Assembly: GCA_964019135.1 (NCBI GenBank)
Contig: OZ025258.1
Coordinates: forward strand, 16,709,771-16,773,770
Source of the DNA: Arenicola marina
Taxonomy: Eukaryota; Annelida; Polychaeta; Arenicolidae
Direction: 5' to 3'
DNA: 64,000 nucleotides
This document shows, in pieces, positions 107-50,484 of this stretch (positions within the stretch are counted from its first letter, which is position 1; each line of letters opens with the position of its first letter). Under the pieces are notes generated by a model, which saw only the letters and a list, made by a program, of their open reading frames with translations, searched no databases and had not been told where the DNA came from. The position numbers were made by a program, and so were the translations under genes.

Positions 107-3100
107 GCGTCGTAGTGGTTGTGAAGACGATTCTCTACGAAGTCTGCGACAATACCAACCAGGCCGTTGGGATGTCCGCGATCTCGCTGGGCTGGGGCAC
201 CGGGGTAGTGCTCGGACCCCTGGTATCCGGTAAATAGACCCTTATATCCCAAGTGAGGAAAAATGTAGATACCGATTTTTTTTTTCTGCATTAGATGGAG
301 TTGAATGAAACGCACTCCAGATAACTGTCAGGCCACTAGCTCTCGGCCTGTTGGTCTGCAGATATCGGCTTGCTAGCCAACTGAGCATAGTTGGTTGGCA
401 TCCGTCCGTCTACGAAAGACGATGGATTTTGCAGCTTTATTAGATTTCAAGTGATACGATTTGCGTCGCGCCATCTGCGCTTATGACTGAACAAGCCTAT
501 CTGTGACCGACAAGTCTTGGTTTATACTGGGTGCCTAGATTGGCGTTTCAAGTCCAGTTTGTCAAACCAGAGCCCGTCGTGGTGGGCCATTCCCTCACGC
601 ACGACACGTGACCATTCCCTCTTTTCAAATGCTAGGTCCTCCCAAGAATTTGTGTCGATGCCGAAAGCCTTCATTTCATTTCACGCAAACATCCTTAAAC
701 CTGAGCTTTGGCCGTCCAGTTGGCCTTTTGCCATCGGCAAGCTCACCGTAGAGCACATCCTTTGATATAAACTGAGCATAAGCATAATACTAATAAGAAG
801 TTTGGCTCGATGGGCGTCGTGCAGGAAACGTTAGGTAGTCATTGTTAGAGTGGTTGTTATCGTCAGGTGGTACTTGATGTGCCTTATGATGCTTGCATTT
901 GTCGTTGTCAGTCAGAAATATTTGCAGCAATGGGTTTGGTGTTCTCTGTCCATGTCAACATATAACAGAAGCTCGTTTCAAATCTCTTGGAGATTGCAAA
1001 TTGGTAGAAGTTCTTATGTGAAAGCCCCACACATATGCCACGTCCATCAACACAGCTTACTCAATGCATGAACATGAAATCTATTGATATATGATGAATA
1101 GTTTTTTGACGCATTTTATGTGACAAATGTGTAACCTCCCTTTGGTTTGTTATATTTCTACGCTTTCTAGCGAATTAAGTCTTCAATGGCATATGTGTGA
1201 TCCAATTTTGCTTGGATGTAGAGGCAATTCAAGGGCAATTGTTTGTACACGCCAAATGACACCGAGCGACATACATGGTGATTGCAGGGTACCTCGCTTT
1301 GCCGGCCGACAAGTACCCGGAAGTCCTCTCTCAGGAGGGCACTTTCGGCAGGTTCCCCTTTCTGCTGCCTGCCCTGGTGGCCACTCTCGTTACTGGAGGC
1401 ACTATACTCCCAGTCTGGCTACTGCTGCCTGAGACACTGCAAAAACACGTGTAAGTGATATAGACGCCACGTGCTACTGTATTATCGCTCAATGGCACCC
1501 ACGTCACCGGGGGGGGCGGGGGTGGGGGGCGCTGTACTCCCTGTCTGGTCAGTGCTGCCTGAGACACTGCAAAGACACATGTGTGTAAGTGAACCTGTCG
1601 CCACGATGTTCCATGATAATTGGAATGTAGTACAGTAACTGTACATAATGTAGTGCATCTTCATGTGTACTCAACAACGCGTAACCCAGTAGTTATTTTA
1701 CATACAGGGACTAAACCTGAGATTTTCGTTTTGTCCTAATTCAAGTTTTATTCTTGCATGGGCCGCTTTCAGATGCTATCCTTCGTAACTTATGCTATGA
1801 TATGATCTAATTATATATCTTTATTAAAAAACAAATAGTAAATAGTATTTTATACTTACAGGCGCCGCTTTCAGATGTTATCATACGTATATTTTGCGAT
1901 ATATCGATGCGTACATATTTTACAGAGATGATCCTGATGTTGTCATCACGGTGGAGTCCGAGACTCCAGGAGAGGGGGACAAGCTGATGGCTCCTGGTAA
2001 AGGTGACCCCCAGAGCGACGCCCAGAGACCGGGGATCCCTCTCCCATCTCGTCAAGCGGCCGACGCCAACAACCATGCCCAATACAGCGCTTTGCATCCA
2101 AAGGCGATTACCGCCCTCAGCGGGAGAGACGAAGTCGAAGTGACGTCGCGACTCAGTGAGAGCGAGAATGATGAGGTCAATGACCTGAGCTTCATCGACG
2201 ACGTTTCCATGGCAACGGATGACGTCAACAGGATGTACGGTCTCGGGGTCGTTCACCCGTCCATCGATGACCTCTGTAACCCCGCCCTGATGAGGTTAAG
2301 GTCAAGGTCACGCTCAAGGTCATTGAGGTCGATCACCAGCGCCAGACCCAAGTCCGTGGCGTCAGAGGCCAAAGCGGGTTCGGTGAGGAGCTTACCGCGG
2401 TCAGCTGCTGTAGCTGACCCCGGAAATGACCGCGTCACCAATGGATACGTCGTCGTGGCAACCACGGAGAAAGAAGAAGAGGAGCCTAAAGCCGACAGTT
2501 GTTGTGATAAACTCCGTCGAGTGGCATTCTTTAGACTGTGCAGGTAAGTCCGTGGCTCCGCAATGTTTCTGATGCGGCAAGTTTTCTTGCGATTATCATT
2601 TTGCATATTCATAGGCGATAATGTGACGTTATAGGCTTGCCGGGTTTTTAATTCTCACCAGGAATAATTAGAAATTATGTTCTTTTCTCCTGGAAACATT
2701 TGAAAATTAGTTGATCGATGCTTGGTGATCTTAACTGGGGTCAAAACCCCAACTTGGGCCTTAACTTGCTTAGTAAGCAGGCTGAACTGCGGATGAACAG
2801 GTCATGGGTTCACATCCGTAGCACGATCCATTCTACCCCCAATTTCAGTGACCCTAGTGGTTTCTTGGTTCCAATTTAGCCTACATGCAATGTGGCCTTC
2901 ATGTCAAGTATTACCTGGTCTCCCGGGGATACCCGGGGCCGGCCCTGTAGCTCAGTGGGTTAGAGCGCTCACCTTGAGCGCCCTGGCCACCTGAGAGCCT
3001 AACGGCACGTGGATCGGTGGTTCGAGCCCCGCTGTGGCCCTGTCTGGGTGGTCGGAGGGTAAAGATCCCATGTCCTTCTTCGCAAAGAGTAGGGGATTAC

Positions 3101-6100
3101 CCCGGGGACATGGCTTCACTCTCCCTTCCTTCTCCCATTGACGCGTCCCGAATATAAAACCAAGCCTGGGGTACCTCCAATATTCTCATCAGCCTCTAGT
3201 TAAAGTACGCAATATTGTGAAGCCTATAACAGACCTGTCATTGATCCCTACTTTCGTGCTTTTTCACTACATGTACTCTTTTAGGTTTTCCATTCTTTCC
3301 AACTTTTTTAACTACGTTTTTATATTGTCCGTACTTTTTTGAAGTTTTTTAAGATTTGACCAGATGACCCATTGTTTGAAGGAAGTCGGGTACATCAGGG
3401 TCACACCAAACGTATCTGATTGATGCCCGATGACCTATGACACTGGGTGCTGGAATGCATGTTATGTGGCATTGATAAGTGATTCCCCATGTGGTAAGGC
3501 TCTTGGTCATCTCGGTAACTAAATAAGCAGAAAAGGCGTATCGAATTCTCAGCATGCCCTTTTTTTTTCCCTCGGTTCCCTACTTTTTCGTACTTTTTTG
3601 TGATGGGTCATTCACAGGCCTATTACCAATCGCTGAAATGTGATTTAACCTGTGAGTTGTTGGTGGGGTGGTTGTTGCAGTATCTCCGACGTCAGAATGA
3701 GCGTCAGTCTTTACACCTTGCTCTCATTCGCTGTCATCGGCTTCGACGAGGTGTTCACCGTGTGGGCTTCAACAGAGGAACACCTTGGTGAGTGTTCGTT
3801 TGACCTTAGTGGGTGACCTTGGTAAGCGGTCGTGTGAACTTGGTGGGTGACCTTGGTGGGTAATCGTGTGCCCTTGGTGGGTGACCTTGGCGAGTGGTCG
3901 TGTGTCCTTTGGGAGTGGTCATGTGACCTTTGGTCTGGCGAATCGTTCCGTATGCAAAGGGGTGAGACCCAATTTCTCTTGAATAGCTGTAAATAAACTA
4001 AAATGCGAAATGCGGTATGGGACATGGGGCTGCTGGTATGAGTTGATGAAAGACTGAAGTCTGAAGTGTGTATATATATATTATATTATAACCATGTATG
4101 TACGTAGGATGGGAATATTCAACTGTATGTACCCGTCTCACGGTAAATAATTGGAAGAAGTATATAAACGTGTATCGACGTATATAGATGTTGCAAATGT
4201 TAATTCTTGTCGACAATACATGCATTAAAGTACTGATTTATTGACGGATTAATTCTTCGACATTTGACCCATTCCAATCGATGTGACGGTAAGTATTATG
4301 CATGCAGTATGGCATTGATATAATTCTTCATTCTTTGACCTTCAGGTGGCTTGGCCTTCACGTCGGAGAAGATTGGGAACGCTATCGGCCTCTCTTCCAT
4401 CCCCCTCATGCTGCTCAATGTCATCCTCTTCCCCATCATCGAGTCCAAGATCGGCGCCAAGCGGGTCAGTGTTTCCGCCATCTTGGCGCCATTGGCCATG
4501 AGCAGACGACATTTGCCGGTTCGCATGATGGGGGCGATAATAGAGTACCACTTGCACGTGCTATGACATTTCTCAGGGAGCATTAGCTAGACGGGAAGGA
4601 CGACGGTGCCGGTTACGAGGTTGCAGCTGGGCGGTAATACAGTACCACGTTTGAATAGCCTCATACAGCAGTAACCAGACAAGGAGCAGAATATAGATAC
4701 TTAATGAGGGGTGTGTGTGTGGGGGTGGGGGGGCGGGGGGGGGGGTGCCCTCTGAATTGCGAATCCCCAACAAGAATTAAAGAGAGCTATATCGAATCTC
4801 CAAGATGAGGACTGTTCAAGATTGGGTGCTAAAAAAAAACCATCTTAACAAATGTGATATCGCGAAGTTTGAGGAATTCGCAGACTGCTATTACGGATCG
4901 CGGTAAATAGGGAAAGTGTCTTCACGTTGTGCCAGGAATTGTGCGGATAACGATCCCCATAAAAATGCCGACAGCTAATCGCGAATCTCCCTGAATTCAT
5001 GGATGCCCATCGCACAGGTCGGAGAAAGGTATTCCCACCCCTCCTTAATGTTACAAACTATGTAGGAACTGTTTCTCCACAACTTACTACACACCCTTCG
5101 TGCCGCTATACTTCGATGTGACTACTAAATACTAGTTGAAGCGTAATGTTAAATCATATCGGATCATGTATAACGTACAATAAATTCATCAATGTGACAA
5201 ATTTTATAATATTTTTTCATCACTACTTTGTAGCAACACTTTTTTTGTTGTTGGTATTTTGAATGTTTTTGTTGCGTTTAGTGACGCCATCTTCTATCAT
5301 TTGTTCCAGACGTTCCAGTACTTCTGCCTTTATATGATCGTCTGCTCCACGATGACCGCCTGTCTCCGCTTCCTGGCCCACGAGTGAGTCACGCACCGGT
5401 CCCGCAGTTAACGTTATTCAAACAGCTTTTTCTCGCCAAAATCAGTCCCGCAGTTAAAGTTAGTCAAACAGCTTTTTCCTGCCAAAATCAGTCCCGCAGT
5501 TAAAGTTATTCAAACAGCTTTTTCCCGCCAAAATCAGTCCCGCAGTTTAAGTTATTCAAACTGCTTTTTCCCGCCAAAATCAGTCGCAGTTAAAGTTATT
5601 TAAACAGTATTTTTCTCGCCAAAATCATCTCACCGTCTAAAGATGTAACACTGATTAATAGTGCCAAATCTATGGGATGTAGATGTAGATCGTGGGTACC
5701 AACTCTGGTTTTGTAATATGTTTTGTGAATGTTAATCTTTCAATACAGCAGAATGCAGAATTGTTACCATTATTGCCGTAATACCAAGTATATCATGGAA
5801 ATACTCCTTCTGTTACAAGTTGGTAACTAGAACTCACTGGTAACTAATACCAGCTCAGTTGGTAATCAGGCTGAGCTGTACAGCAGGTCGTGGGTTCGAA
5901 CCCTGCCTGTTGCATCTGGGGCCAGTTCCACTTCGTTGTCCCGGGAGGAGTTTTCTTGGCTCACATTAGTCATTTCTGTGCACAAAGCTGGCCGTAAACA
6001 CCCACATTTCACCATTTTCTTTTACCTTTCTCAGCTGGGTGTGGCTGTGGACCATGCTGATGATCTCGACTGCAGGGCTGAAGAGCGCCGGAGTCATCTG

Positions 6101-6972
6101 TTTCTCCTGCGTCTGCCTCTTCATCAACAACTCGACCTCCCCCAAGGACACAGGCACCGTCAACGGCATGGGTATGATGTTCACGGCCATCGGCAGGTGG
6201 GTGTAGCCTCTAAACCCCTGACCTCTAGTATTTTTATGTCCCTGGGACGCTGGCCCTCACAGTGTAACCACTAAATATTTATTTTCACTGTCGAAAAAAA
6301 AAGATATTTTTCCTAATTACTTCATAATTTATTGTGTATGCCCAACATTTGTTTGTTCATTCAGTATTTCGTTTGCATTGATTCGTTTGTATTATGTACT
6401 TTAGGCCTGATGGCCTTGGAAACGGAAATCTATATCCTTAAGACGCTGTAACCACCAATTTATGACCTGGTATTTCTTTAACCCTAGGATCTATGTCTGT
6501 CACTACACTCTGACCTCTAGTATTTCTATAACCCATAGGATCTATGTCTGTCACTACACTCTGACCTCTGGTATTTCTATAACCTTAGAATCTATGTCTG
6601 TCACTACACTCTGACCTCTAGTATTTCTATGACCCTAGGACGCTGGCCCCCACGGTGGGCGGCAGTATCTTCGCCTGGTCGATCGTCGACGGCGTTCTGA
6701 TCGGCTTCCCGTTCGACGTCAACCTCGTCTTCATCATCTTTGGCGCCGTGTACCTGGCCGCCAACATCCTGTGCGCGCTCCTTCCGGAGTCGCTCAACAG
6801 GCAGAAGAAGAGTCAGGGTCCTGGAGCGGCGGGTCGGGGGTCGCCGCTCCCGGACGCCGATCCGGAACGGAAACCGACAGAGGATGGGGCACGGATTCAG
6901 GGGGAGTCGCGAGATGATAAGGGACCGGAGATCCAGGGGGGAAGGGAAGCGCAGGAACAAGCTACTGTGTAG
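107..6972 (+). CDS. ZIFL-type major facilitator superfamily transporter, 3' portion (8 exons)
   Basis: Exons 107-229, 1288-1450, 1926-2543, 3681-3787, 4346-4464, 5310-5383, 6035-6196 and 6639-6972 (stop TAG) join in phase and give 565 residues; the start and first helices lie left of the window. The first exon reads YEVCDNTNQAVGMSAISLGWG, followed by GPLVSGYLALPADKYPE and FGRFPFLLPAL. This resembles the EVC..yQAlGlS..GIGLI.GP..GGyLAqPAeKYP region known from plant and animal ZIFL carriers. Later exons supply TM7-12, including NGMGMMFTAIGRTLAPTVGG. A 206-residue hydrophilic loop is encoded entirely by exon 1926-2543, between TM6 and TM7. The family is proton-coupled and implicated in zinc, chelator or organic-anion transport in plants; the substrate here is unknown. 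Family assignment is firm; the ZIFL subgroup rests on remembered family motifs. Confidence 0.85.
1926..2543 (+). CDS. Exon encoding the long TM6-TM7 cytoplasmic loop of the MFS transporter
   Basis: This exon starts DDPDVVITVESETPGEGDK and ends DKLRRVAFFRLCR. It is acidic at first, then rich in RSRSRS, serine and arginine, with no hydrophobic helix. The phase (one base in, two bases out) fits both neighbouring exons. MFS proteins usually have a much shorter central loop, so this is a lineage-specific disordered insert that could carry phosphorylation or sorting signals (inference). Confidence 0.8.
2765..2900 (+). repeat. SINE family C copy, degenerate, in MFS intron
   Basis: Contains GTAAGCAGGCTGAACTGC followed by GGTCATGGGTTCACATCC, a tRNA-like stretch with a B-box-like element, then a decayed tail. 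The same head occurs at 5847, 11811 and, inverted, at 32570. Confidence 0.6.
2935..3168 (+). repeat. tRNA-derived SINE, family A, full length
   Basis: The head GGCCCTGTAGCTCAGTGGGT resembles a tRNA 5' half with an A box, and GGTTCGAGCCCC is a B box. The body has the family signature AAAGATCCCATGTCCTTCTTC, GGGGACATGG and CTTCTCCCATTGACGCG, ending near AATATAAAACCAA. It lies in an MFS intron in the sense orientation. At least eight further copies or fragments occur in this window, mostly in the opposite orientation. Confidence 0.85.
3230..3621. mobile_element. hAT-like MITE with CAGRCCTGT termini, copy 1
   Basis: Left end CAGACCTGTCATTGATCC; right end GGGTCATTCACAGGCCT, which is an imperfect inverted repeat of about 20 bp. 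The interior is T-rich and shares segments such as TTTGACCAGATGAC and CCATTGTTTGAAGGAA with the copy at 8837-9341. It has no coding capacity and sits in an MFS intron. The superfamily is inferred from the CAG..CTG ends; I found no clean target duplication. Confidence 0.65.
3781..3930 (+). repeat. Tandem array containing multiplied splice-donor-like motifs
   Basis: The donor of the exon ending at 3787 (CACCTTG then GTGAGTG) is the first unit of a degenerate array of about 17-25 bp units, with repeated CCTTGGTGGGTGA, CTTGGTAAGC and GTCGTGTG. At least five downstream units keep an intron-start-like GT context. Reading through the first donor meets TGA within about 30 bases, so use of later donors would truncate the transporter. 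Confidence 0.7.
5397..5640 (+). repeat. 46-47 bp tandem repeat in MFS intron, about 5 copies
   Basis: Units read approximately CAGTCCCGCAGTTAAAGTTA, TTCAAACAGCTTTTTC and CCGCCAAAAT. The array begins only about 15 bases after the donor of exon 5310-5383. Copies differ by a few substitutions and single-base indels. Confidence 0.85.
5847..5965 (+). repeat. SINE family C copy in MFS intron
   Basis: CAGCTCAGTTGGTAATCAGG is an A-box-like head and GGTCGTGGGTTCGAACCC is a strong B box. These are followed by the family tail TGTCCCGGGAG. It is the best preserved family C head in the window. Confidence 0.75.
6208..6638 (+). repeat. Repeat-rich last MFS intron with a copy of the exon 8 start
   Basis: A unit of about 60 bp (CTCTAGTATTTCTATAACCC, TAGGATCTATGTCTGTCACT) is repeated three times from about 6470 to 6630. 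The acceptor of exon 6639 is the end of the last unit (TATGACCCTAG). At 6215-6262 an older copy reads GGGACGCTGGCCCTCACAGT, matching the first bases of exon 8 but with CCTGG in place of the CCTAG acceptor. Confidence 0.75.
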
Positions 6973-7680: not shown

Positions 7681-7719
7681 TTTTGCCATTGCTATTTCAG
7701 CACTGGTGATTTACCTGGG

Positions 7720-9341: not shown

Positions 9342-9345
9342 TAAT

Positions 9346-18058: not shown

Positions 18059-21000
18059 TTAGCTGCTGGAGGTCTCCACAGAGGCCAACAACTCTGGAGC
18101 GATAGTTGGGAGGGGAGGGGGCAGATCGTTGTCACCGCCGGTAGAGGGCGCGGCTGCCGGCGTCTGGGGTAGAGGAGCGCCCCTGGCGGTCATCTCGATA
18201 CTCCCGAGGACAATCTTATCCGAGGCGGCGCGGTCGGCGGCAGATGTTTTGCACACGTCCCGCAAGTCACGGACCTGAGCTTCCAGTTCTCTGTGTGACA
18301 AGCGACGATGGAATATTAAGGGCACCGCCGAAAAAACTCTCTTCCATTTGGGTTGGGATTTTATTTTAAGATACTCTTGTAATATTAATGTAAACACTCC
18401 TACTAATATCGTCAATGTCAATTATAACATTAATAATACTTTAGCTCTACACACGGTAAATAAGTGTACTAACATCAAAACAGTCAATCATAACTAAAAA
18501 ATCAAGTTCTTCATCCACCTTATTCTTAATAATATTAATAACGTATTAACATTATTATTATTTATTATTAATTTATGGGTCGTTACCATTGCAAATAACT
18601 AACATCTCATTAGAACATCAAGTCAGGGTTACGGCAATATACATTGGAGACAAGGAGGCTAATATAGAGTACGTAGCATAATATGATAGTCCTTCCAGGA
18701 TGTAGCCACCTACTTCCACGCCTGTGACGAGCTCTGAACGGCCATCGTGTGGGCGCTGACCTCTTGTTGGAGGCCGGAAATCTCGCCTCGAAGTCCCGTC
18801 AACGTGGCTTGCAGAAAGCTTAATGGCCTACACAGCATAATGGACCAAAATGATGACATGTATTCTACCATCAGTAATAAAATAAGCGCAAAAAACGATA
18901 AAAGTATTATATTAATGAAGTCTTAACTTCATTGTCTTCATGTTCCTTGTCCGATATATATGTTAGAAAAATATTTCTTAAATTTATATAAATATATAAT
19001 TTTCCATGACTGTCACTCTGCTACGGTTCTTAATTTTCTATCTGTTAAGTGCCAATGTAAGGTCAGCAAAACGAGACATCAAAATTGAGTAGCACGGGTA
19101 AATTCTGTACCGGAATGTAAATTCCCAAGTTGTATTATAGATTTGACTACGACGGTTTGGAGTAACATGTCTAAAGATGTTGTACTCACTTGCTCTGCAC
19201 AGTAACTGGGGTCGTGTCCTGTAGGAGGCGCTCCAGAGCGGCAAGGTCAAAGGGCAGAGGTGGCGCCTCGAAGTCTGCCATCTCCTTGGTCTGGGACGCA
19301 ATCAGCTTCAATGGACACACAAGGGTCACGTTAAAGCAGCCTACTTTACAACATGGTCACAACGGGGCGCGAACCATCGAGCCACGTGCCGTTAGGCTCT
19401 CAGGTGGCCAGAGCGCTGAACGCCAGCGCTCTAACCCACTGAGCTATGGGGGCGGCCCCCAGCAAATAAGTGAAAACATACATGATATAAACATCCCTTA
19501 TTCAGATATTGATATCTCACTCTCTAAAGTCTTCGTGTTAAATAAATGTAATTGTTTTTTTACAATTTCAGTGTTAATTAAATAGTAAGGCGGCTTAATA
19601 AAGTGGTTTGTGGGGTGATACCTAAACTGAAATAATACCAGAGGGCAGAGTCTTTTGCCACCTTAATCGTTGGTACAGATGGGATTTTTATGGATTGGCG
19701 TTTTACGGCCACGTTTATGCACACATGGGGATCAATGCATACATGGGCTAAATGAGGGTCAGTGTATCCATGGGCAATAGGAAACAATAGAAAAATAAAT
19801 ATTGTTTACAAAAACATAAAAAACAGAATTCCTGGACGAGGAGATCAAAGGAGGAAAGAGCCATAGACCCAGGTGGGGTTTGAACCCCCAGCTTGTTGAG
19901 CTGTAGTTGAATACAAGGAGGAAGTTTCCGTGGTTACCAAGATGGCGGCGATCACACTTACCTTTGTGTGTTGGACGCTGGCCCGCAGCGCCCCCTTCAG
20001 GTCGGAGACTTTAGCCTGTAGCTGGATCTTCTCGGTCTTGGCGATCAGTAGATCCTCCCGGATCTGGCTCAGCTCCGTGGATGACGTCTGGATCAACAGG
20101 ATCACAGGAGCAGATGCAAGAATGGTTCACAGATCCCAAGGTTGTTCAGAAATATTGGGGCAAAAATTAAAGCTTTTTGTCACTTTTGCACACATCAAGG
20201 CTAAATTAGGCGAAAATTCAATGGTGATGTTAACGGACACTTTATCGAATTTTTATTCACCTTTGTGACGGAGCTACCATTATGTAAAGTAACTTATGGA
20301 TCAAAATCGTGGGGCTACAGCTTTAAGTCAATATTAAACCCCAACCTGCCTATAAAGTAACGTTATTGCGTCTGTCTGGTATTTCTTTCAAGCAGGCACA
20401 CGAAAAGAAGTTAGTCTCCAAATTATTCAATCTAGAGGTAGTCGCACTCGGTTTTGTCTGTACGCTGACGGATCCTATATGAGGGTTCGGTATGACCGAC
20501 CTGCAGTGTTTTGGTGAGCGTCCCGGTCTCCATGTTCTGGCGTTCCTCTACCACTCGCAGCTGCTCCTGAAGTGCCTCTATCTCAGCGGTCTTCTCTCCC
20601 ACCAACCACTCCAGGCTCTGCCAACCAACGCAACCAAACATATGTCAAGGCGATGTATATATAGCAAAGTAACCTTTCAATTATTGTAATAATTTTAGGT
20701 TTAAAAATATTGTGATAATTATGAGTATTACATTCATATGGCATTAATCGCAGATCATGAGCCGGTAGCAGACCTGATTTTTTTTAAATTGCATTTTCAC
20801 GCAGTTAAAACGATTATGGTAATAACAGAACCATATCTTACGCTACATTAAGTATTATGACTATTGCATCCATGCCAACCCCAGTAATAACTCAGAGCTC
20901 AGTAGCCGGCTCCTAATACACTGACACCATTTCCAGGAGCGAAATCCCCACCCAACCAGCCCCTTTCACACTCAGAACCCCCTCCCCACACACCCACCCA

Positions 21001-24000
21001 CCTGTAAGCGTTCCGCCACGACGGGGTCCCTGGCCCGCCTCTCCTCCACCTCGCCGCGGTAGCCGTCGCGCTCATCCGACACCCCCTTCCTTCCCCTACC
21101 CCCTACTCCCCCCCCCCACCCTCACACACACCCACCTGTAAGCGTTCCGCCACGACGGGGTCCCTGGCCCGCCTCTCCTCCACCTCGCCGCGGTAGCCGT
21201 CACGCTCATCCGACACCCGCCTGAACTCCGTCGCCAAGCGCTCCAGCTCGGCTCGGTGCTTCTTGTCGCTCTCCCGCACCTTGTGTAGCTCCTCCCCCAG
21301 CGTGGCCACGTGCTCGGCCTGGCCACCCACCTCACCGGATATGACGTCATGGTCCCGCTGCAGACCCTCCAGCTGGCGTCGCACCTTCACGTGCGCTCCC
21401 TTCTCCGTCATCAGCTGCGCGGTGGCGGGGGGAGGGGGGTGGTTATATAGGTTGTATACTCAGGACGCTTTAACAACTTTTGGTCATATCGCGTCAATGG
21501 GAGAAGGAAAGGAGAGTGGAGCCATGTCCCCGGGGGTAACCCCCTACTCTTTGCGAAGAAGGACATGGGATCTTTATCCTGCGACCACACAGACATGGCC
21601 ACAGCGGGGCTCCAACCACCGAGCCACGTGCCGTTAGGCTCTCAGGTGGCCAGAGCACTCAATGCGAGCGTTCTAACCCACTGAGCTATCGGGGCGGCCC
21701 CGCCAAGGTTTGTGGGGAGATAAAATACCGACATTACGCTCCATGAGATAAAACCCATTGATTCGAGAACTACATACCTCGCAGTGAAAAACCCTGATTT
21801 AAGGGTTGTGAAACTCTGAACTATAATACAAACCCAAAGGTGCGACAGACGCCGACCACACGGACCTGTTTCTTGGCGTCCTTGACGGCGCGTTTCTCCT
21901 GCTCCAGCGCCTCCTCCAGCTGCTCCACGCGCTCCCGGAGCTGGCCGGCCTCGCGCTCCCGTCGCTGGAGCTCGTCCTCCACGTGGGAACTCATCTGGAC
22001 GGAGGAGGATTCGCTGCGGGCCAGCGCCGCCTCCAGGGAGCTCGTGTGGTCCTTCAGCGCCGAGTGGCTCTGCTGCACGCCTGCAGCAGAAATAAAGTTA
22101 AATATCAAAAATATCGTTTTGTAGTTTTTGTTTTTAATTAAAAAAAACATTTTTGAAGAAAAACATTTTTGAATTAAAATATTGTAAAAATTTGAATTCA
22201 CTTGTTTTATAATTAACTTGTTTTTAATTACAATTTGTTCCAATTGACAAAATTTAGTTTAAAAAATAATTCACATATATTTAACTATTACTAATTAAAC
22301 TATTTTTAATTACAATATTTGTAAATTAAAACATTTTTTATATTTAAAAATTAACGAAAAATGTATTTGTATTTAGTTTTATTTAATCACCAAATTTTAT
22401 TAAATATAATAAAACTCTCCCCCCGCCCCCTCCCCGCCCAGCATGACCCCCTCTATCTCCTCCCCCCCATCGTCCCCGCTCTCACCTGCCAGCTTGCCCC
22501 TCTCCTTCTCCAGGTCGAGTTCCAGCTGCCTGAGTTGGTCCTCCCGCCCCCGGTGCCGCTCCAGCACCTCGCCGGCGGCCCGGAGCTCGGCCTCCAGGTC
22601 GGCAATGTGCTTCCTGTAAGCCTCCTCGTCCACCTCCCGCCGCTGGAAGACCTCCCGAACCTCAGACTCGATCGTCAGCTTCTCCTCCGTCACGGTCTTC
22701 AGCTCCAGGCGAATGAGCTGCCGACAAACAGACGCACTCACTTTAACGTTCAGATTGAGATTATAAAATCACGTATTTGTCAAAGCGGAGACATTTAATA
22801 CACGACTTCCTTGTCAATTCTGATCCGAAGGTAGAGACAAAATAACCGCTTCCCACTGTTATCGAGACTGCTTAAATTGAATTTGAATTGAATTTAATTG
22901 AAGGTCGCATTTTCTGCGTGAATGAGGAGCGTTCATTTTCTCATAAACTTTGTACCGTGTCTGCACCCCCAACTTGTTACCTTAATATATATACACTACA
23001 TTGGATTAGCAGTTAAACATAATTAATTACGCTAGTGGACTTGCCAATGAGGAAGAAAGAGCCACAGCGAGACCAGAAAAAAGGAAGTTTCCTTATGTAT
23101 ATACGGAGTTAAGTCAGAATTGAAAAGGCAGGTCAGAATTTGACAACCACACACGTATGAACATCAAACGGATAACGCCACGTTGACACCGTTGAGCAAG
23201 GTCAGAAGCATATATAAAGCAAATTGAGTAATTATTGATGTTGTCGGCCTCGTGTCACTGTATAACATTATGCTATGTATAATTGCATTTAACTATATTC
23301 ATGTGTCATATATAGATTTCGTTGCTGAAGGAATAAAAACAAGAGAAACATGAGAAGAGCATGAGAATGAAGGGTGGGTGAGGATACTCTTGTCGTTGGC
23401 ATATTACAGATCAAAATCCTGCAATTCTCAGAACAATTTAAAGTACGAAACGGCCAAAACGTAACACAAACTATGCCCTAGTAACAATTACATAGACATT
23501 TACGTTTACTAGCAACTACAGTTTAGTACGAAAAGGAAAGAACATCTTTCAAGTGAGGCAGGGAAATTCCTAGCCGAAACCCAAATCCATTTTTTACTGT
23601 GCAATAACATGTCAAATAGGCGTTCCATTGACGAAACGGGAATAAAACAAGTTTGGATTAATTCCTGGACCAGTACCTTGATTTCCAATTAACTAAATAT
23701 CCAATTACGCCGCCTGGTAATAGCATTAAGATAATTCACTGTGATTGGTTCGCTGTGACCGTCCTGTACATATACCACTATCCTAAGACCATAAAATTGA
23801 TATCAGACTGATATATATATGAGTAGCAATTGTGATCGCTCGTTACATACATTTAAAACTCTATTGCTAAGATATCATGTCGATATCGCTCTGCTAAATG
23901 TGCATAGCATACCTGAATCTCCTGTTGGAGCTGAGCCGTCTTCTCATCCAGGTCCAGAGAGAAGCGTCCCTGTACGGTGTGTAGCTCCTCCTCCAGCCTC

Positions 24001-42200: not shown

Positions 42201-45200
42201 ATGCATTATTCATATATGTACTTAATTAGTTCGTTCTATATAACCTCTCAAATTAAGTTATATTAGCAATGACATCTGGATATATACATAATACAACTAC
42301 TATAGAAATATGGATAGCGGCAGTGGCTGACAGCTAGGTACCATACTTGACTGTGGTCCCACATGTTGTCAAGTCCAAATCCCACTTGTGGCCATTTCAC
42401 ATTTTCATATTGGGGTTTCACATTCTGGTTTATCTCACATGTATTCAAAAGTAGCCTAAACAATAATTCATCCATCTGCAGAAACATTCTGAGAAAGATA
42501 ATCATGAGCATTGTACCTGCCTCTGAATATGTGTACCGGTATATAAGATTGGTGAGCCAGGCATGTACACCATGCATAATATTTCATTTAACTTGCCCTA
42601 GGCTACCATTAGTCAACATATATATACATTTACAGACTGCAGTGGCCTATTGGAGCTATCCGAGGGGCAGGGCCAGGGTCTGATTTTCCCTCCCAAGGGT
42701 GAACCGACGGATGTTCAGAGCCACCGTCTTCTCGCCTGTGAGTGCGTCCTAAATCCCCCACCAGGTGGCCACGTGGTCATGGATTTTGTGACCTTTGACC
42801 TTCCCTCCTCCGGCGACACGAGCCTCTGCCTGTATGGCTCCGTCCTGTACGGGGATTATAACCACCGTGGGGAGAGGGTGGTGAGGCATAAACTCTGCGG
42901 ATCTGTGGCCGCTCCCCGGCGCTTTACCACTCAGGGATCCCCAGCTTGGATCAGCATGGAAGCAATCGTTGTAGATGGGACTGTGTGGACCAAACATGCT
43001 GGGGTTAAGGTGAAGGTCCACTTCTACGAGCCTGGTGAGTCACAAGGTGTACTTGTTACAAGTGTACTTTGTTACATACAGTCCTGTGTCGGATATAGGA
43101 TTGTGACGGTGTGTGGTTGGTTTAATAGGTTGATTTAACTAGGACGTTTTAACCTCTCCAGGTCATATCGCGACAATGGGATCCAGGAGCCATATATCAC
43201 CTGGGTGTAACCCCTACCCTCAAAAACGATATTTTATCTTCATCCTGTCTGCTTCGCAAAACTCCTAGTCGGGTGGTTGGTTATAAATAAGACTAATAAT
43301 TTGTACCTGTGTAGGCCATATCGCGATAGTGGGAATTCAGGGTCAAGGCTCGGATGAGGATTGTCTCCGGCAATAATTAATCCCGTACTGTTTGTGAAGA
43401 AAGGCATGGCATTTATCCTGCACAACCGTAGATGTTGGCACAGGTGGGATTTGAACCTCACACCGGCCGCTTAGGGCTGGCCTCGCAGAGCACACTCGAC
43501 AGTAGCCGAACGCGGGGTGGCTTTAATCTGAAGGTGGGAGGGGGTATACAATATGGCTGGGATGTTCGTGTAGGTTAAATATATCTGAGATGATTGTGAG
43601 TATTAGGGCAATGGTTGACCACCACTGCAAGAGAAATATGGCCTATTAAAATTAACTTTGGTATTTATTTGCTTACTTATTAATAACGCATGTAAGAAAG
43701 TAACATTTTTGTTCATAAAATTTCATCCGGCATATTGGATATATCAAAACATCATAAAGCATGCGTTATTTTGTGTTCCGGTTATTAGGCATAAAAGTGC
43801 AGTGATTTGTCCTCTTTTTTTTCAGATTCGTTCAATATGGAACTGCTCCTAGCTGGCGTCATATACTTCATCGTTGTCCCAATATCATGTATCTACCCGT
43901 TCGTGAAATTCGTGTACGTAGCATGTGTATATAACATGACGTTTATAGTTTTTGTAGCATATCATATCCATTCAGGGATGGTGTACTCTATTTTATTGAT
44001 GAAGTAGGCCTACACCTATGCATCGTAGTAGGAGTTTAATACAGTGTTAGTAACTTTAGTTGTGTAACTTTATGTCGGCCTCACATTATGCGGTTTTTCC
44101 AGCAGGTTTAAAATATGAATTCAGGTATTTGTTTTTTTTATACCCATCGGATTTAATTGCGATGTCGCAAAAAGACCTGTCGATATCTGTTTCCCGATTC
44201 AATTGGAACGGTCATTAATACATACATACATCTGATACAGCTGTATAGTCAGGCTTGAAGCCTATCAGCTGGTCGTGGCTTTTAACCAACGCTTTTACAT
44301 TTATATCAGTGCAAAAATTAATGCGCTTTGATCATGTAGTTTAGCATATATATATACATGTATATATATATCTACAACTTATTTTATAATATATTTCATT
44401 ATCGGGGGCGGATCCCGAAATTTGAAAAAGGGGGCTCAAACTTGGGACCTGGGGGTGGGGGGGGGGCACGCTGCCTCAGATAGCGTTCTTCTTCAGATAG
44501 CGTTCTTCCTCAAAAGGAGGGGGGGGGGGGCACGCTGCCTCAGATAGCGTTCTTCCTCAGATAGCGTTCTTCCTCAAAAGGAGGGGCGGGGGGGGGGGGG
44601 GGTCCACGCCTCAGATGGCCTACATTTTGCTTCGGCACTCTTCCTCAAAAAAGAAGGCGGGGGCATTATGATTACTGTGGATGTAATGGATGGCGGGCTG
44701 GATCCTGTTAGGTCCCGGCGGCATCCAGGCCGGGTAGTGATCACCGATTCCATCGTGATGGACCGACTTCAGTGGCAGATGGAGAAGGAGAAGGTGGCGT
44801 CCATCTGCGTCCAGCAGACGACAGGCGACACCAAGGTCAAGGCCTCGGCGAAGAGAAAGGTGGGCTTTTTGATGACATCCGGGCCGTTACGGGAACGGCG
44901 ACATGTTTAAAGCAGCCTACTTACATACGCCACCTTAGATTTTTACATTTTAGAATCAAGACTATAAGTATCTCAAAGTTATGATGCATAGATGTTTGAT
45001 ATCTCGTTGAGTCTGTGAAACAACAATTTCAACATGAAACTGCGCGGACTAGTTTATCGCGCGCGGACGTCCTAGCGCGAGCCGCGGTCAAAATCACATA
45101 GAATACCGAACAACGAACAGGCGCGCAAGGATATAAAGCCAGCCACCAACTTCTGCTCCGGTGACCAAATTTGCTCCTCTCCAGATCGCCCACAGGCTTT

Positions 45201-48200
45201 CAGGATTTTAATTAAAGACTGGATATACTTATTTGATATGGGAGAAGAGATTGGTTAAAGATGACGTCATTCTGGGAGCGCGTTATGACAACAACAAAAT
45301 CTTCACTGGATAAGACGTCGTAAATAACTGTCATTATCGGACCATAACGAGTGGCGAGATCCTGTGTTCGTAGTCATCCATACGTGGAAAGCCACTAGCG
45401 TACGTGTTAAGGGTGATGATAGCTTCACTAGAGTGCGCCACTGTGGTTTTTACAGATTAGGAATGTCGCTTATTGATTACATCAGGTGACTTATTAAGGC
45501 GACATTGGCTTAATTCGCATCGCCGACAACAATTAACTTTATATTTCTCCATATATACCAACCCTATTATTTGGCGAAATGTTGGCCAATCTGTACATGT
45601 TGAGGATGTTATTCGGGATGTCCTCCATCAATAAATAAGTACATACCAATTAACCGTATATCGCACACTCATATTTCTGGTGATCGTTTCCAGCGAGAAT
45701 CCCATGGGCAGACCACGTGTTTCTCGGTATCCCAGGGCAACAGTCCACAGTACGAAGAAATCCCGGCCATTCGAATTTTCCCGCCAGATAATGCTCTGCA
45801 TTGTAAGTGCTTTAAGGTCGGGTCTTAACGACAGAAATTTACTTTGGAATTTTCAAGTCTTATTATCATGTCACCCCCCCCCCCCTTCCCCTCACCCCAC
45901 CTCACTCCCAGGTCATACATACTGCGGCTTGTGTACTAATGACATCATCACTGTTGCACCCCCCTATCAACACACCTGCAATCTGTCTTTCCGATCCATG
46001 CAGAAGATGCAGTGATTTTCGCTCCCATCTTTCATGCGAGAGCCCACGGAATGGGTCATGGTAGTGAATAATAGCATGTAAGACATACGTGAGCTATGCT
46101 GACATTATAACGATTCGCCGCCCTTACACTGAAGAACGACCGTTCGATTACTTTGTTATATTAACTTTTGTTGTTCACAGTGGAAAATGTAACATTTACC
46201 TAAACGTATCATTATCCAACATTTCTCGCGATGCACTTTAAAAAACAAAAGTTTAGAACAAAGTAATCGAACGGTGCATCCCGAGAAATGTTAGAACAAA
46301 GTAATCGAACGGTGCAGCCCGAGAAATGTTAGAACAAAGTAATCGAACGGTGCATCCCGAGAAATGTTAGAACAAAGTAATCGAACGGTGCATCCCGAGA
46401 AATGTTGGATAAAAAATGTTATTTTTCCCACTGTGACAATAAAACTACTTATCTTGATTAGTTGCAGTGGTAGCGGAGACAAGTCCTAGGCACTTAGCAG
46501 TGCCTTCTGAGAACTGTGAGGTAACGATTGCTGCTCATTATCCTTCTGTGTTCCGGTTCCGGTTCCGGTTCTCCTCTTACACTTCCCCTATCAAGCAAAG
46601 ATTCCTCGCAAAAGATATCGTCAACGCAAGACTATTGCTCATATGCGTAGTTGCAGATCAGTACACGAGATTTTATAAGTCTCGGTCCACTAGGAATTCA
46701 TCATTTCTATAATAGAATATGATCATGTTATATCTTATAGTAGATTGGGCTGAACTTCTACCGTTGCAAATGGTTATTTGACCACTATAAGCGCTTGCAG
46801 GCTCAAGAAAATAAACTTCAGTGATAAATAATTGATAAGAATAAGTAATTCTTGCACTAATCAGACCTTAAAATGTTACAATTTTAGATCCTGGCCTGAT
46901 TTTGGCGGGAATCCACTGGATTCAGACAAATAGTTTTAAAACTTACCACATACGGAAATGACAGATCTTCGTTATGTCTTTCTTTTCTTCACGCAGAGCT
47001 CGCAGTCACCGCCGCCCCTTGATCCCGACCCAATCCGGCACCAGGACGCTATGCCACTCCCGCCGCGAGATCCACTTCCGGTCCGTGGTTCACTTCCGGT
47101 TATGGCCCACGGTGCGATCCCGCCGCCGCCGGATTCACCCCCCGTGGATCGCCACTCTCCGGATGAGCCGTACCGACAGGACTCCCCGACCTACATCAGC
47201 CTCCCCTCACCTGGATCCATTCTGCGGACTCCCTACCAGACCAGTCGGGATCTGTCCTTCACCAGCGTCAGGGATTGTGGCGCCGGGGATTTCTCTCTGA
47301 TCCAGGATGAAGAATACCCCTCCGAGGCCAGCTTCCAGGTTATTATACCACATGCGCCCCCGTGGACGGGTGTCTGGGGGTCACCCCGTGGCCTAGTGGG
47401 TAGCGCATTCGACTGTTTGCAAGTGTGCTCTGCTAGGCCAGCGCAAGCGAGCGGTGTGTGGTTCGAATGCCACTCGTGCAAAGATGTTGTCAAGTGTGCT
47501 CTGCGAGGCCAGCCTAAGTGGCCGGGGCTTAATTCGAATCACATCAGCAAACGTCTACACTGTACACATGTCTATGTTCGTGCAGGATAAAGATCCCGCA
47601 AAGAGTAGAGGATACCCGTCAGAGACATGGCTCCTCATTGCCTTGGCCATGTCCATTGTCGTGATATGATCCACAGACTGAGGTTAAAGGGTTCTACTTC
47701 ATCACTCAATGGACGGGGCATGGACATTATTTACATGGCACTCCAGTAAAGAATTGGCGGCACAATAATAAATAACGCTTTGTCACTCTTACTTTGGGTC
47801 CCTCCTGGCTTATAAGGCTTTCATTGGTTACTTGATATGTTTCTAAAAATCCCGTCATCGCTTTACAATTGGTCTACAAATACAATAATACGATGCACTT
47901 TACCCTGTGTAAAAAAACGCTTTACAATAACAATCTAATGCCATGACATTGAGTGTTAGTTTCTTTTTTTTATGAGTTCTGGGTAAATATGTGTGGCTTT
48001 CACTTCATAAAATTAGCATAAGATATGTATGTTTTCTGTAATGAAGTTCACACGTATCTCCCTGTAGGCCGCGGCGGTGATGGAGAGGACGAGTAAGTTG
48101 GTTGTATATTTAGGACGCTTTAACCACTTTTGGTCATATCACGTCAATGGGAGAAGGAAGGGAGAGTGGAGCCATGTCCCCCCGGGGTTAACCCCCTACT

Positions 48201-50484
48201 CTTTGCGAAGAAGGACATGCGATCTTTATCCTGCGACCACACGGACACGGCTACAGCGGGGCTCGAACCACCGATCCACTTAGAGGAGGAGGAGTGAGTA
48301 TTTGTGGCATTCACTTCACGTAAGTAGCGTAAGATCTGTATGTTGTTCATGCCGTTTAGACATATCTGTCCGTAGGCCGCTGCGGGGATCGGGAGGATGA
48401 GGAGCACGCCCTTCTCCCTGCTGGATATGCCGCGGAGGCTTCTGGGTAGTGACGTCCGAGCCGCGGAGGCCCTGATGGTGGAAGCGGACGAGGAGCCGCC
48501 CCCGAAGCGCGGTCGCCGGGCCACCGATACCAGACGACTCTCGACGTTAGCCTCCATCTCTGAGCATCCGGAACTGGAAGAAGAAACGCCGGCCGTCACC
48601 GTGCTACCGCCTGATCCCGGTCGTGATCCCGATGGGCAACGTCCTCCTGGTCATCCGGATCATCACAAAGCGGAGGAGATCTCCACCGATGGTAGCGTGT
48701 TCGACGCCCGGGAATACTCGCTGAGGGATTTTACGGGATTGCTGCAGTCCAGCGGAGAAGTCGGATCCGGAGTCGTCATTCGTGGATCATCGGCGTCCCT
48801 AGATGACGCGGGTAACAATGTCGGCTATAGGGAGTCTCGAGATCGGCGGGATTTTTCCGAGCCGCCCAAATCCCGGATTGAGAGCCGAGAGGAAACGGAA
48901 GCAGGGGAACCCATGATGACGGAGGAACCGGAAGGGGGAATATCGCATCTTGACGGCGTCTTGTGGAGGATGTCAGATGATGACGTCATCGCCGGTGTCC
49001 CACCCACCCTGGCGACCAATGACCTTGGAGAGGTCATGGATAGCGACAGTGTTACCTCTTCACAAGACTCCGATCCCGAACTCGCTAGGAGTTCCACCAC
49101 CCAGGCACAGACCCAGCCCCGGGGGGTGGGAACCACCAACCTTGTGGGAGAGGACTCCGAACTGGCAGCTTCCTACCTGAATTACATCGATGAAGAAGAA
49201 GAGCAGAGGGAGGAGGAGGAGAGAGACGAGGAGGGGGATGAGGCGGAGGAGGAGGAGAGGGACGAGGAGGGGGATGAGGCGGAGGAGGAGAAGGAGATAG
49301 AGGAGGGGGAGGAGGAGGAGGAGAGGGCGGAGGAGCAGGAGGGTGAGGAGATTGACGAGGAGGGGGAGGAGGCGGAGGAGGAGAGGGACGAGAAGGGGGA
49401 GGAGGCGCAGGAGGAGAGGGAGGAGGAGGAAAAACAACCACAGCGACTCTCGTCGAAGCATCATTTCCGCACATATCCGGAGGATCGGCGAGACGTATCC
49501 GACTTCCTGGATAAGTTACTACGTCGTCCGAACGTTACCATGAGGGTGGTGAGCCCCCGGCCGGCCAGCTCCCGACCGGCCAGCCCCCGACCGGCCAGAC
49601 CCCGACCGGCCAGCCCCCGACCGGCCAGCCCCTCATCCAACTTTGACCTCACGGATGTGACCGCGATCACCTCCCCGTCCACCTTCATATCAGAGCCCTA
49701 CACCCAGGACTCCGCGTCGACAAACTTTCGCGATCTCAACCCCGACGAGCATCTCGACAACGTTTGGCGGATACGCCAGGCGCCCTCTACCGTAGGAGGG
49801 CATATTAATCAAAATCACGATCGCGTGACGATGAGCCAGATGCCGGGGAAGGGCTACACCGTGCGCCAGACGTCGCGCGAGGAGATCTGCTACCGCTTAG
49901 CGCTGACTGACCTTGCCGACCTCAGTCACATGGCACGTGGCGGGTATGGTATGGTCCGAGCAAAATCTAATTTGCTGTCACCGCGTGAGGCGGAAGCCAC
50001 GCTCGACTCCGATGACGACATCGGGGAGAACCGCGGCGTGACTCCAACAGAGTCGCGGCAGACCTGTTTGTTACCAAGGCAACCGGACTCCGCCCTTGGA
50101 TCCGGCGGCGGAACTCTCGACGGAGGAGTTTCTGTGAACGCCGGTACAAAACACAAGCTGTTTCCAAGGCAACATTCCACGACGAGGCAGACTACTACCA
50201 CGCCGTGTTCACCGTGGAGAGAAGATAACGGCGGGCAACGGGCCAAACCTCGCACGTCCAAGGTCACCTTCAAATCCGGTAAAACAGGTGAGAAGACCCA
50301 TAAGCGCTTCCGGTCACGTTCACTGAAAAAGCGGAAGACGCCCGGTAGACCACGTGACCCGGCGTTACGCCAGATGGAACCGGAAGTAGGTGGCGACGCT
50401 CTCGGTGACGTCACGTCCTACTACTCCCTGGGTGGTTCGACTTCCAAGATAATGTTTGGGATCGGCAAAGAAACCTCATGCTGA
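39196..50484 (+). CDS. Single-pass CUB-domain membrane protein with long cytoplasmic tail
   Basis: Exons 39196-39271 (tentative signal-peptide exon), 42636-43034, 43826-43913, 44712-44859, 45694-45802, 46468-46520, 46997-47338 and 48376-50484 (TGA) sum to 1,107 codons with matching phases. Residues 1-25 (MWHGRRG, then LGLLVAFCVIFIISYCLS) look like a signal peptide. Residues 26-158 form one CUB-like domain. Residues of about 162-187 (MELLLAGVIYFIVVPISC then IYPFVKFV) are a TM helix, followed by the stop-transfer SRRHPGR. The tail of about 920 residues includes YEEIPAIRIFPPDNALH, proline-rich stretches (LPPRDPLPVRG), a glutamate-rich block and RPASP repeats. No orthologue is recognised. Exons from 42636 onward are well supported; the donor of the first exon (A then GTTCAC) is weak. 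Confidence 0.7.
39616..40571. mobile_element. 956-bp inverted-repeat element flanked by TA
   Basis: Left end GGGCTATAAAGTCTCGTTCG..ACTTCCGG..TTTTGGGGACAAACAAACG. The right end inverts this as CGTGTGTTTGTTTGTCCCCA..GACTTCAG..CTGTATAGCCC; the two match over about 70 bp with gaps. TA borders both ends. A TA target is typical of Tc1/mariner-like transposases. No intact transposase frame is present. It lies between the tentative signal exon and the CUB exon. Confidence 0.7.
42636..43034 (+). CDS. CUB-domain exon
   Basis: It reads CSGLLELSEGQGQGLIFPPK, then CECVLNPPPGGHVVMDFVTF, DLPSSGDTSLCLYGSVLYGD, HKLCGSVAAPRRFTTQGS and KVKVHFYEP. This follows the CUB pattern: an initial cysteine, a C.. then ..G.hi.l.f..fdL core, a C.YgsV.v pair and LCG..P before the final strands. 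The first two bases complete a codon begun upstream; the donor is CTG then GTGAGT. Confidence 0.75.
43121..43522 (-). repeat. Two adjacent SINE copies (family A-like tail fragment and family B)
   Basis: 43121-43260 carries a decayed family A tail (GGTCATATCGCGACAATGGG). 43262-43522 is a fuller family B copy: on the minus strand GCCACCCCGCGTTCGGCTAC, GTGCTCTGCGAGGCCAGCCC, a B box near GAGGTTCAAATCC, and AACATCTACGGTTGTGCAGG. Confidence 0.7.
44440..44620 (+). repeat. G-rich tandem duplication in CUB-gene intron
   Basis: CACGCTGCCTCAGATAGCGT followed by TCTTCCTCAAAAGGAGG occurs twice, separated by runs of 9-18 G. The G tracts are dense enough for quadruplex formation. It ends about 90 bases before exon 44712. 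Confidence 0.8.
46130..46440. mobile_element. Foldback element with internal 38-bp tandem repeats
   Basis: The outer arms TTCACAGTGGAAAATGTAAC and CCAACATTTCTCGCGATGCA are inverted on the right as TGCATCCCGAGAAATGTTGG and AATGTTATTTTTCCCACTGT. Inside, GAACAAAGTAATCGAACGGT, then GCATCCCGAGAAATGTTA, repeats about 3.5 times at 38-bp spacing, and CGTTCGATTACTTTGTT at 46131 is its inverse. It ends 30 bases upstream of the small exon 46468-46520. Confidence 0.8.
46468..46520 (+). CDS. Small 53-nt exon of the CUB gene
   Basis: Between GATTAGTTGCAG and GTAACG. It resolves the phase between exon 45694-45802 (one base over) and exon 46997-47338 (phase 0), and reads LVAETSPRHLAVPSENCE. Without it the downstream join would create a TAG stop, so its inclusion is well supported by phase. 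Confidence 0.65.
47387..47700 (+). repeat. tRNA-derived SINE, family B
   Basis: GTGGCCTAGTGGGTAGCGCA is an A-box-bearing head and GTGTGGTTCGAATGCC a B box. Related segments at 43262 (inverted) and 55697 define the family. The segment GTGTGCTCTG..AGGCCAGC is repeated within this copy, so it carries an internal duplication. It begins about 50 bases after the donor of exon 46997-47338. Confidence 0.8.
48068..48092 (+). pseudogene. 25-nt decoy exon copied from the start of the last CUB-gene exon
   Basis: CTCCCTGTAG precedes GCCGCGGCGGTGATGGAGAG, then GACGA and GTAAGT. It resembles the true exon start 308 bases later (CCGTAG, then GCCGCTGCGGGGATCGGGAG). About 85 bases of upstream intron are duplicated as well. 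Both splice signals look usable, but its length is not a multiple of three, so inclusion would shift the tail out of frame. Confidence 0.6.
48097..48280 (-). repeat. SINE family A, head-truncated
   Basis: Runs from the CCAACC-side tail (TAGGACGCTTTAACCACTTT) to the B-box region GGGGCTCGAACCACCGATCC and stops before the tRNA 5' end. It sits exactly between the decoy exon and the duplicate that contains the real exon acceptor. Confidence 0.85.
48376..50484 (+). CDS. Last exon of the CUB gene: low-complexity cytoplasmic tail
   Basis: This exon has 703 codons including the stop. It opens AAAGIGRMRSTPFSLLDMPR. A block of about 80 residues of Glu with Asp, Gly and Arg is encoded at 49189-49432. 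Repeated RPASP units are encoded at 49550-49630. A basic KSGKTGEKTHKRFRSRSLKK stretch precedes the end, ..MFGIGKETSC. It is largely predicted disordered. The purine-rich stretch makes long open frames on the other strand, which I regard as shadows. Confidence 0.8.
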   Translation, partial: AAAGIGRMRSTPFSLLDMPRRLLGSDVRAAEALMVEADEEPPPKRGRRATDTRRLSTLASISEHPELEEETPAVTVLPPDPGRDPDGQRPPGHPDHHKAEEISTDGSVFDAREYSLRDFTGLLQSSGEVGSGVVIRGSSASLDDAGNNVGYRESRDRRDFSEPPKSRIESREETEAGEPMMTEEPEGGISHLDGVLWRMSDDDVIAGVPPTLATNDLGEVMDSDSVTSSQDSDPELARSSTTQAQTQPRGVGTTNLVGEDSELAASYLNYIDEEEEQREEEERDEEGDEAEEEERDEEGDEAEEEKEIEEGEEEEERAEEQEGEEIDEEGEEAEEERDEKGEEAQEEREEEEKQPQRLSSKHHFRTYPEDRRDVSDFLDKLLRRPNVTMRVVSPRPASSRPASPRPARPRPASPRPASPSSNFDLTDVTAITSPSTFISEPYTQDSASTNFRDLNPDEHLDNVWRIRQAPSTVGGHINQNHDRVTMSQMPGKGYTVRQTSREEICYRLALTDLADLSHMARGGYGMVRAKSNLLSPREAEATLDSDDDIGENRGVTPTESRQTCLLPRQPDSALGSGGGTLDGGVSVNAGTKHKLFPRQHSTTRQTTTTPCSPWREDNGGQRAKPRTSKVTFKSGKTGEKTHKRFRSRSLKKRKTPGRPRDPALRQMEPEVGGDALGDVTSYYSLGGSTSKIMFGIGKETSC

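Follow-up and report, generated by a model that had tools for sequence, protein, structure and literature searches.

Mirage-like exon-edge duplications in the annelid Arenicola marina and a shortage of duplicated acceptors in its myosin genes

Introduction

Tandem repeats that extend across exon-intron boundaries and carry duplicated splice signals have been described in amphioxus under the name of mirages (PMC3087553; PMC3902484). In the relevant parts of these two papers, mirages are found at both edges of globin exons and are proposed as a source of introns; the PGBD5 mirage is described in PMC3902484, and the cases in Adh3 and troponin C are cited by way of the mirage papers. The minisatellite units in the passages on amphioxus range from 10 to 160 bp. 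The present analysis concerns exon edges copied into the adjacent intron in 64,000 nucleotides of the polychaete Arenicola marina (assembly GCA_964019135.1, contig OZ025258.1, positions 16,709,771 to 16,773,770 of the forward strand), a stretch that is called the window below, and in myosin and kinesin genes of the same assembly.

Like mirages, the worm repeats have a unit that spans the exon-intron boundary (5 of 61 edges in the window, one of them marginal; 17 of 79 donors and 2 of 69 acceptors in myosin genes). The units of 28-134 bp lie within the minisatellite range, either edge can be involved and many copies keep AG/GT signals. Unlike the amphioxus mirages, they occur in an annelid host, where arrays in motor-protein genes have as many as 79 identical donors, and their density was measured against the intronic background, showing no excess at edges and a shortage at myosin acceptors. 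Splicing and instability of mirages were tested in amphioxus; the worm case is described from the sequence of one assembly. As judged from the assembly, the worm repeats have the structure that defines mirages, and they look like exon-edge minisatellites of the mirage type, now in an annelid.

Tandem duplication of AG/GT sites has reportedly given rise to an intron in the potato RdRp gene. This model of intron gain is attributed in PMC3087553 to Rogers 1989 and Gao and Lynch 2009. The worm arrays resemble it in that splice signals are carried to new places and differ from it in that no gained intron is shown. The earthworm metallothionein genes have clusters of minisatellites in intron 1, whose monomer averages about 180 bp, and exon-4 copies that do not appear in transcripts; arrays that start with an exon edge are not mentioned in the passages on these genes (PMC12783039). 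Human segmental duplications contain internal tandem repeats at exon-intron boundaries, with minisatellite expansion that alters gene structure, and these repeats are reported to form novel introns with transcript support (PMC2812944); the worm arrays are described from genomic sequence. Among the open-licence papers listed in the literature searches, none was found that describes exon-edge arrays in an annelid or a difference between donors and acceptors.

The reading that we consider probable is that short tandem duplications arise everywhere in the introns of this genome, that exon edges are included as by-catch, that copies of donors are nearly neutral and that copies of acceptors are probably purged.

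Duplicated exon edges in the window

Gene models were built from frame continuity and splice consensus, giving four multi-exon genes.

107-6972, + strand: gene 1, MFS-type transporter (Pfam MFS_1, 5.8e-13), 8 exons in the window with a continuous spliced frame
36180-18059, - strand: gene 2, coiled-coil protein of about 2030 amino acids, 15 exons with a continuous frame
41040-50484, + strand: gene 3, 8 exons modelled
55326-59891, + strand: gene 4, with SH3 domains, 3 exons

Genes 1, 2 and 4 have a single uninterrupted reading frame through the exons. Gene 3 has a phase mismatch between exons 4/5 and 6/7, and exons are therefore probably missing or misplaced there. Together the models have 61 splice edges, of which 30 are donors and 31 are acceptors.

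The window was scanned against itself with blastn (same strand, shift of 12-1500 bases, score of at least 36), without use of the coordinates from an earlier, sequence-only reading. The scan gave 72 pairs; in three Markov-simulated windows with the local dinucleotide frequencies no pair reached a score of 36. The sequence-only reading had reported five exon-edge copies in three genes, and all five were recovered, cases 1, 3, 4 and 5 being solid and case 2, near 3.85 kb, marginal. The five are beyond chance as duplications, not as matches to exon edges. Features are listed with their basis, including site scores and arrays found by Tandem Repeats Finder (TRF); a slash marks the splice junction.

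1288..1450, + strand: exon 2 of gene 1 (numbered within the window), 3' end duplicated
1395..1471, + strand: case 1 original, final 56 nt of exon 2, donor 1450/1451 and 21 nt of intron (blastn self-scan, alignment)
1525..1605, + strand: case 1 intronic copy with a donor at 1584, preceded by a G-run, 79% identical to the original (blastn)
3782..3909, + strand: case 2, 34-bp minisatellite of 3.8 copies (TRF, site scores)
6611..6657, + strand: case 3 original, acceptor 6638/6639 and initial 19 nt of exon 8 (blastn self-scan, gene model)
6218..6264, + strand: case 3 intronic copy of the acceptor and exon 8 start, 89% (blastn, alignment)
6470..6640, + strand: 50-bp array adjoining the exon 8 acceptor (TRF, site scores)
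21136..21414, - strand: exon 10 of gene 2, frame kept by donor 21135/21136 only
21112..21218, - strand: case 4 original, final 83 nt of exon 10, donor 21135/21136 and intron start (blastn, alignment)
20978..21084, - strand: case 4 intronic copy with donor at 21001, 95% (98.8% over 84 bp; blastn)
48299..48401, + strand: case 5 original, acceptor 48375/48376 and initial 26 nt of the last exon of gene 3 (blastn, gene model)
47988..48093, + strand: case 5 intronic copy of the acceptor and exon start, 75% (blastn, site scores)
48097..48279, + strand: fragment of a short interspersed element (SINE) with tRNA-like features, between the case 5 copies, 85.9% identical to the copy at 29601-29857 (blastn)

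Cases 2 and 4 are arrays with units of 34 and 134 bp, while cases 1, 3 and 5 are two-copy duplications. The copied donor of case 1, TGT/GTAAGT at 1584, has a score of 6.4 bits, and the true donor one of 8.6. The first unit of case 2 holds the final 6 nt of exon 4 and its donor, with weaker donors recurring at 3821 and 3855; with only 6 nt contributed by the exon, the case fails a margin of 10 nt. The copied acceptor of case 3 is dead, its AG being lost (TGG), and the 50-bp array beside it contains three extra AG sites (6487, 6538 and 6588) in addition to the true one at 6638. In case 4 the original and the copied donor are identical over the nine letters CAG/GTGGGT; the copy, if used, would lengthen the exon by 134 nt and put it out of frame. 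The copy of case 5 has an acceptor at 48067 (6.2 bits), followed by 25 nt and a GTAAGT donor (CGA/GTAAGT at 48092). This candidate microexon, 48068-48092, has both splice sites, but 25 nt between phase-0 exons break the frame.

The copied parts include 6-83 nt on the exon side and 21-77 nt on the intron side, so that the breakpoints are not at the splice junction. Identities range from 75% (case 5) to 95% (case 4), and the five events are therefore probably of unequal age. The SINE fragment at 48097-48279 has a 14-mer on each side; the two match at 12 of 14 positions and by reading would be a target-site duplication, which suggests that the element was inserted after the case 5 duplication.

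Window edges against the intronic background

Of the 61 edges, five fall within a copy with a margin of at least 5 bases, and four do so with a margin of at least 10. Local duplications cover 10.9% of the intronic positions, which gives 6.7 expected edges (P of five or more, 0.81). When the duplications were rotated over the whole window, 5.0 edges were expected (P 0.55), and with rotation within gene spans 6.0 (P 0.76); a background limited to non-coding positions no more than 1 kb away from the edge in question gave 4.7. Counted as events, the 13 duplication families within gene spans and not wholly coding would by random placement give 4.0 edge matches, with five observed (P 0.36). The view that five cases suggest non-chance targeting of edges finds no backing in these figures. 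Two pairs were left out of the counts, one formed by SINE copies (28901/29601) and one that is C-rich with its members 1.45 kb apart (59615/61068). By edge type the window has 3 of 30 donors (2.2 expected) and 2 of 31 acceptors (2.5 expected) in duplications.

The biggest single share of the intronic duplication coverage comes from a minisatellite in gene 2 (33673-34891), 1.2 kb long with 19/38/95-bp units built on GGTACCATGGTCTA.

Donors and acceptors in myosin genes

A search of the assembly (867,369,267 bases in 762 contigs) with a myosin-head profile gave 77 exons, of which the weakest seven were dropped. The 70 used, with 1.5 kb on either side, form 36 regions of 157 kb in all, where 137 edges were placed and 101 passed the filter (site score of at least 5 bits, at most 30 nt from the match end). 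Tblastn of the exons against their own regions gave 80 new matches, sorted by eye: 39 were taken as held-out exons and 41 repeat exons that the set included before, in the four regions C11:15791133, C12:10142802, C12:10160263 and C2:59155064. The edges that passed the filter total 148 (79 donors and 69 acceptors).

Local duplications cover 33.5% of the 136,891 non-coding positions in these regions (0.4-0.7% of bases in three Markov controls). Donors lie in duplications in 17 of 79 cases with 21.4 expected, and 17 or fewer were obtained in 13% of 5000 within-region rotations. For acceptors the figures are 2 of 69 with 19.9 expected, a count as low being reached in none of the 5000 rotations. 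The difference between donors and acceptors was attained in one rotation of 5000 (Fisher P 0.0009). Held-out exons alone gave 5 of 23 donors (5.3 expected) and 1 of 24 acceptors (6.0 expected). With score cut-offs from 36 to 120, or with TRF arrays instead of blastn pairs, donors varied between 11 and 17 of 79 and acceptors stayed at 2 of 69, the TRF counts being 14 of 79 and 2 of 69. The idea that duplications are tolerated at splice junctions agrees with the donor counts, in which depletion is not significant, and fails for myosin acceptors.

Coverage by duplications on the acceptor side is 0.07 at intron bases 1-15, 0.11 at 31-60, 0.15 at 61-100 and 0.34 at 201-400. On the donor side it is 0.20 from the initial bases and 0.27 at 201-400.

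At C4:367768-384767 (- strand), outside the window, there is a muscle-type myosin gene by reading, with runs of similar exons. Four exons match the profile at about 110-154, with a neighbour at 89-127, and four match at about 590-640, as would be expected of arrays of mutually exclusive exons.

Long arrays of intact donors

In several myosin genes the copied edge is repeated many times, with units of 28, 42, 62, about 100 and about 125 bp. The donor counts that follow include the true donor. The exon at C4:41904101 has the end ...CGCTTTAAGCAGTTCGCCGACAG/GTAAGA; its final 36 bases with GTAAGA are iterated at 42-base steps, giving 33 exact CAG/GTAAGA that reach nearly to the end of the stretch read, one 84-type step included. 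At C12:10144472 a 62-base unit of 48 coding bases (KGDPIGGHINNYLLEK by reading) and 14 intron bases gives 24 exact AAG/GTAGGC. A 28-base unit at C4:2.73 Mb begins three bases inside the exon and gives 79 exact CAG/GTCAGT, and a unit of about 100 bases at C2:59.16 Mb gives 14 exact CAG/GTGGGT. Two kinesin donors have smaller arrays of exon end and donor, one over KLNLVDLAGSERQGK; one of the two (C20:13012401) scores below the site filter.

The GT of the next copy is at the expected place in 14 of the 17 myosin donor cases, absent in two and without a reading in one. The expectation of new splice sites is borne out as far as sequence goes, such donors being kept; that of microexons is not borne out by the five window cases, the 25-nt candidate shifting the frame. 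The copied edges might instead be functional alternative splice sites or microexons under selection, and good consensus is kept in CAG/GTGGGT at 21001, in CGA/GTAAGT at 48092 and in the acceptor at 48067. However, the products of case 4 and of the case 5 candidate both break the frame and the copied acceptor of case 3 is dead. Moreover, the first in-frame stop falls beyond the true donor and before the donor of the next copy in 13 of the 17 myosin donor cases; the remaining four comprise two with a stop further on, one with no copy reading and one with the edge placed 28 nt late. Selection for function is very unlikely on this evidence.

The difference between donors and acceptors could also be mutational, with duplication seeded on the donor side by a feature such as a G-rich run after the GT, and acceptors being poor seeds. 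A donor with a G-rich run is found in case 4, in the myosin arrays C2:59155064 and C11:15791133 and in the two kinesin arrays, and a run of G7/C7 occurs in the first unit of 3 of 17 window arrays against 0.5 expected (P 0.007). In the myosin regions the count is 6 of 83 arrays against 4.5 expected (P 0.29), the arrays richest in exact donors (C4:2727077, C4:41899659 and C12:10142802) have no such run in the units inspected, and donor density is not above background. We regard a mutational cause as rather unlikely. G-runs as a general seed, suggested by the window arrays, were discarded on the myosin count.

Kinesin genes and pooled counts

Of 133 kinesin profile matches, the top 20 free of stops on chromosomes C1-C20 were used with 400 bases on either side, and 23 of the 38 edges placed passed the filter. 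Some top kinesin matches lie on the small contigs C390, C504 and C536, outside the window, and have several internal stop codons; these could be pseudogenes or foreign sequence.

The window, myosin and kinesin edges together give 21 of 121 donors and 5 of 111 acceptors (P 0.003). Several observations weigh against purging of acceptors as a general property of the genome. Kinesin donors (1 of 12, 2.1 expected) and acceptors (1 of 11, 1.4 expected) show no asymmetry, nor does the window by itself, where the acceptor side has no dip in coverage (0.08 to 0.14). Without myosin the pooled counts are 4 of 42 donors and 3 of 42 acceptors (Fisher P 1.0), so that the asymmetry rests on the myosin genes. 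A looser site filter gives 6 of 86 acceptors and 20 of 95 donors in myosin, and three of the donor matches belong to one myosin gene with duplicated whole exons; without this gene the counts are 14 of 68 donors and 2 of 61 acceptors (P 0.003). The edges outside the window come from profile matches and a splice-site matrix trained on the window models, not from transcripts, and one array edge (C4:2727077) is positioned 28 nt too late. The Fisher and Poisson-binomial values assume independence of linked edges, and array lengths, taken from a single assembly, may include assembly error. In view of these counts, purging of acceptors is regarded as likely, but as unproven outside the myosin genes.

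The absence of a hot spot is firm for the edges examined. The sequence-only reading had proposed that tandem duplication often starts at or near splice junctions, and five cases in three genes, together with arrays of several myosin and kinesin genes whose start lies inside the exon, as far as about 90 nt ahead of the donor, speak for such a preference. Edges are nevertheless not affected more often than intronic positions chosen at random, whether in the window, in myosin or in kinesin genes, and the breakpoints are scattered rather than placed at the junction. An edge frequency no higher than the intronic one, which by the criterion of that reading itself speaks against the proposal, was found in the window and the myosin genes. 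Preferential initiation at exon edges is highly improbable, and the earlier interpretation is partly supported as a whole.

Possible origin of the arrays

By-catch of edges, near-neutral donor copies and purged acceptor copies can be put together as follows. Short head-to-tail duplications, with units of about 25-135 bp, would arise throughout introns. If such a duplication includes an exon edge by chance, the end of the exon and its splice site would be copied into the intron, and repeated unequal exchange or slippage could then extend it to a minisatellite with dozens of intact splice sites.

Exon sequence and the order of synthesis favour the exon-side donor. Duplication of a donor would be nearly neutral because the exon-side original stays joined to the complete exon; this original is presumably the one used, and the copies would lie in the part removed. 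A later donor copy, if used, would usually lead to a stop codon or a frame shift. Recognition of a 3' splice site proceeds from the branch point to the AG that follows it, and a second branch point, tract and AG placed upstream would therefore be in direct competition with the original. Arrays are scarce over myosin acceptors and the approximately 100 bases upstream (branch point and pyrimidine tract), which would be explained most simply by selection. The coverage profiles at myosin acceptors and donors fit such competition. A stronger form of the argument, in which duplication of the 5' splice site is nearly neutral, duplication of the 3' splice site is strongly counter-selected and the splicing of motor genes stays correct despite dozens of identical intact donors downstream, is put forward tentatively, and we are less inclined to accept it than to doubt it.

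Other features of the window and the assembly

A SINE-like repeat with a tRNA-like head has nine copies or fragments in the window, the one at 29601-29857 serving as reference and the others being 82-91% identical to it (blastn). No match to it was found in Rfam, with ARAGORN or in a plasmid search.

2935-3145, 16071-16326, 19352-19459, 21450-21701 and 28901-29156: SINE-like copies
29601-29857 (reference), 32144-32399, 48097-48279 and 55545-55682: remaining SINE-like copies

Gene 4 has a coding minisatellite (57876-58402) with a 42-bp unit in 12.5 copies, in frame, encoding 14-residue repeats like SPIQERPDVQRRLA. The last exon of gene 3 has an acidic GAG-rich coding stretch at 49209-49430 and a 15-bp repeat, approximately SPRPA, at 49552-49632.

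Contig C762 (15,942 bases) is the mitochondrion, identified by cox1 (profile) and tRNAs (ARAGORN). The remaining protein genes were named from frames and the ribosomal genes assigned to gaps that accommodate them; three ARAGORN matches, two of them the sole opposite-strand matches, were judged spurious. The order is cox1-N-cox2-D-atp8-Y-G-cox3-Q-nad6-cob-W-atp6-R-(non-coding)-H-nad5-F-E-P-T-nad4L-nad4-C-M, followed by rrnS-V-rrnL-L-A-S-L-nad1-I-K-nad3-S-nad2. It is identical to the order tabulated for Eisenia, including the non-coding region between trnR and trnH (table in PMC9848864). Apart from the tRNAs it is the order that PMC8924214 calls ancestral for Sedentaria and gives for oligochaetes, leeches and Siboglinidae. 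The gene order thus makes a sedentarian annelid the most likely host; amphioxus, suggested at first by the mirage literature, was rejected because of it.

Implications

A handful of exon-edge duplications is the chance yield of a genome dense in tandem repeats, which corrects an easy inference from such cases. The phantom exons produced in this way could mislead gene predictors and exon-level homology searches; 41 of the 80 new tblastn matches in the myosin regions were of this kind. To our knowledge, the choice of the spliceosome among identical sites has mostly been studied with few engineered duplicates. The worm motor genes have coding segments (KGDPIGGHINNYLLEK in myosin and KLNLVDLAGSERQGK in kinesin, by reading) that are trailed by a tandem series in which the end of the same exon and its donor recur, and RNA reads from one animal could therefore reveal which copy is used. 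If the proposed view is true, the genome is a natural experiment in which the exon-side donor wins whatever the number of equal competitors downstream.
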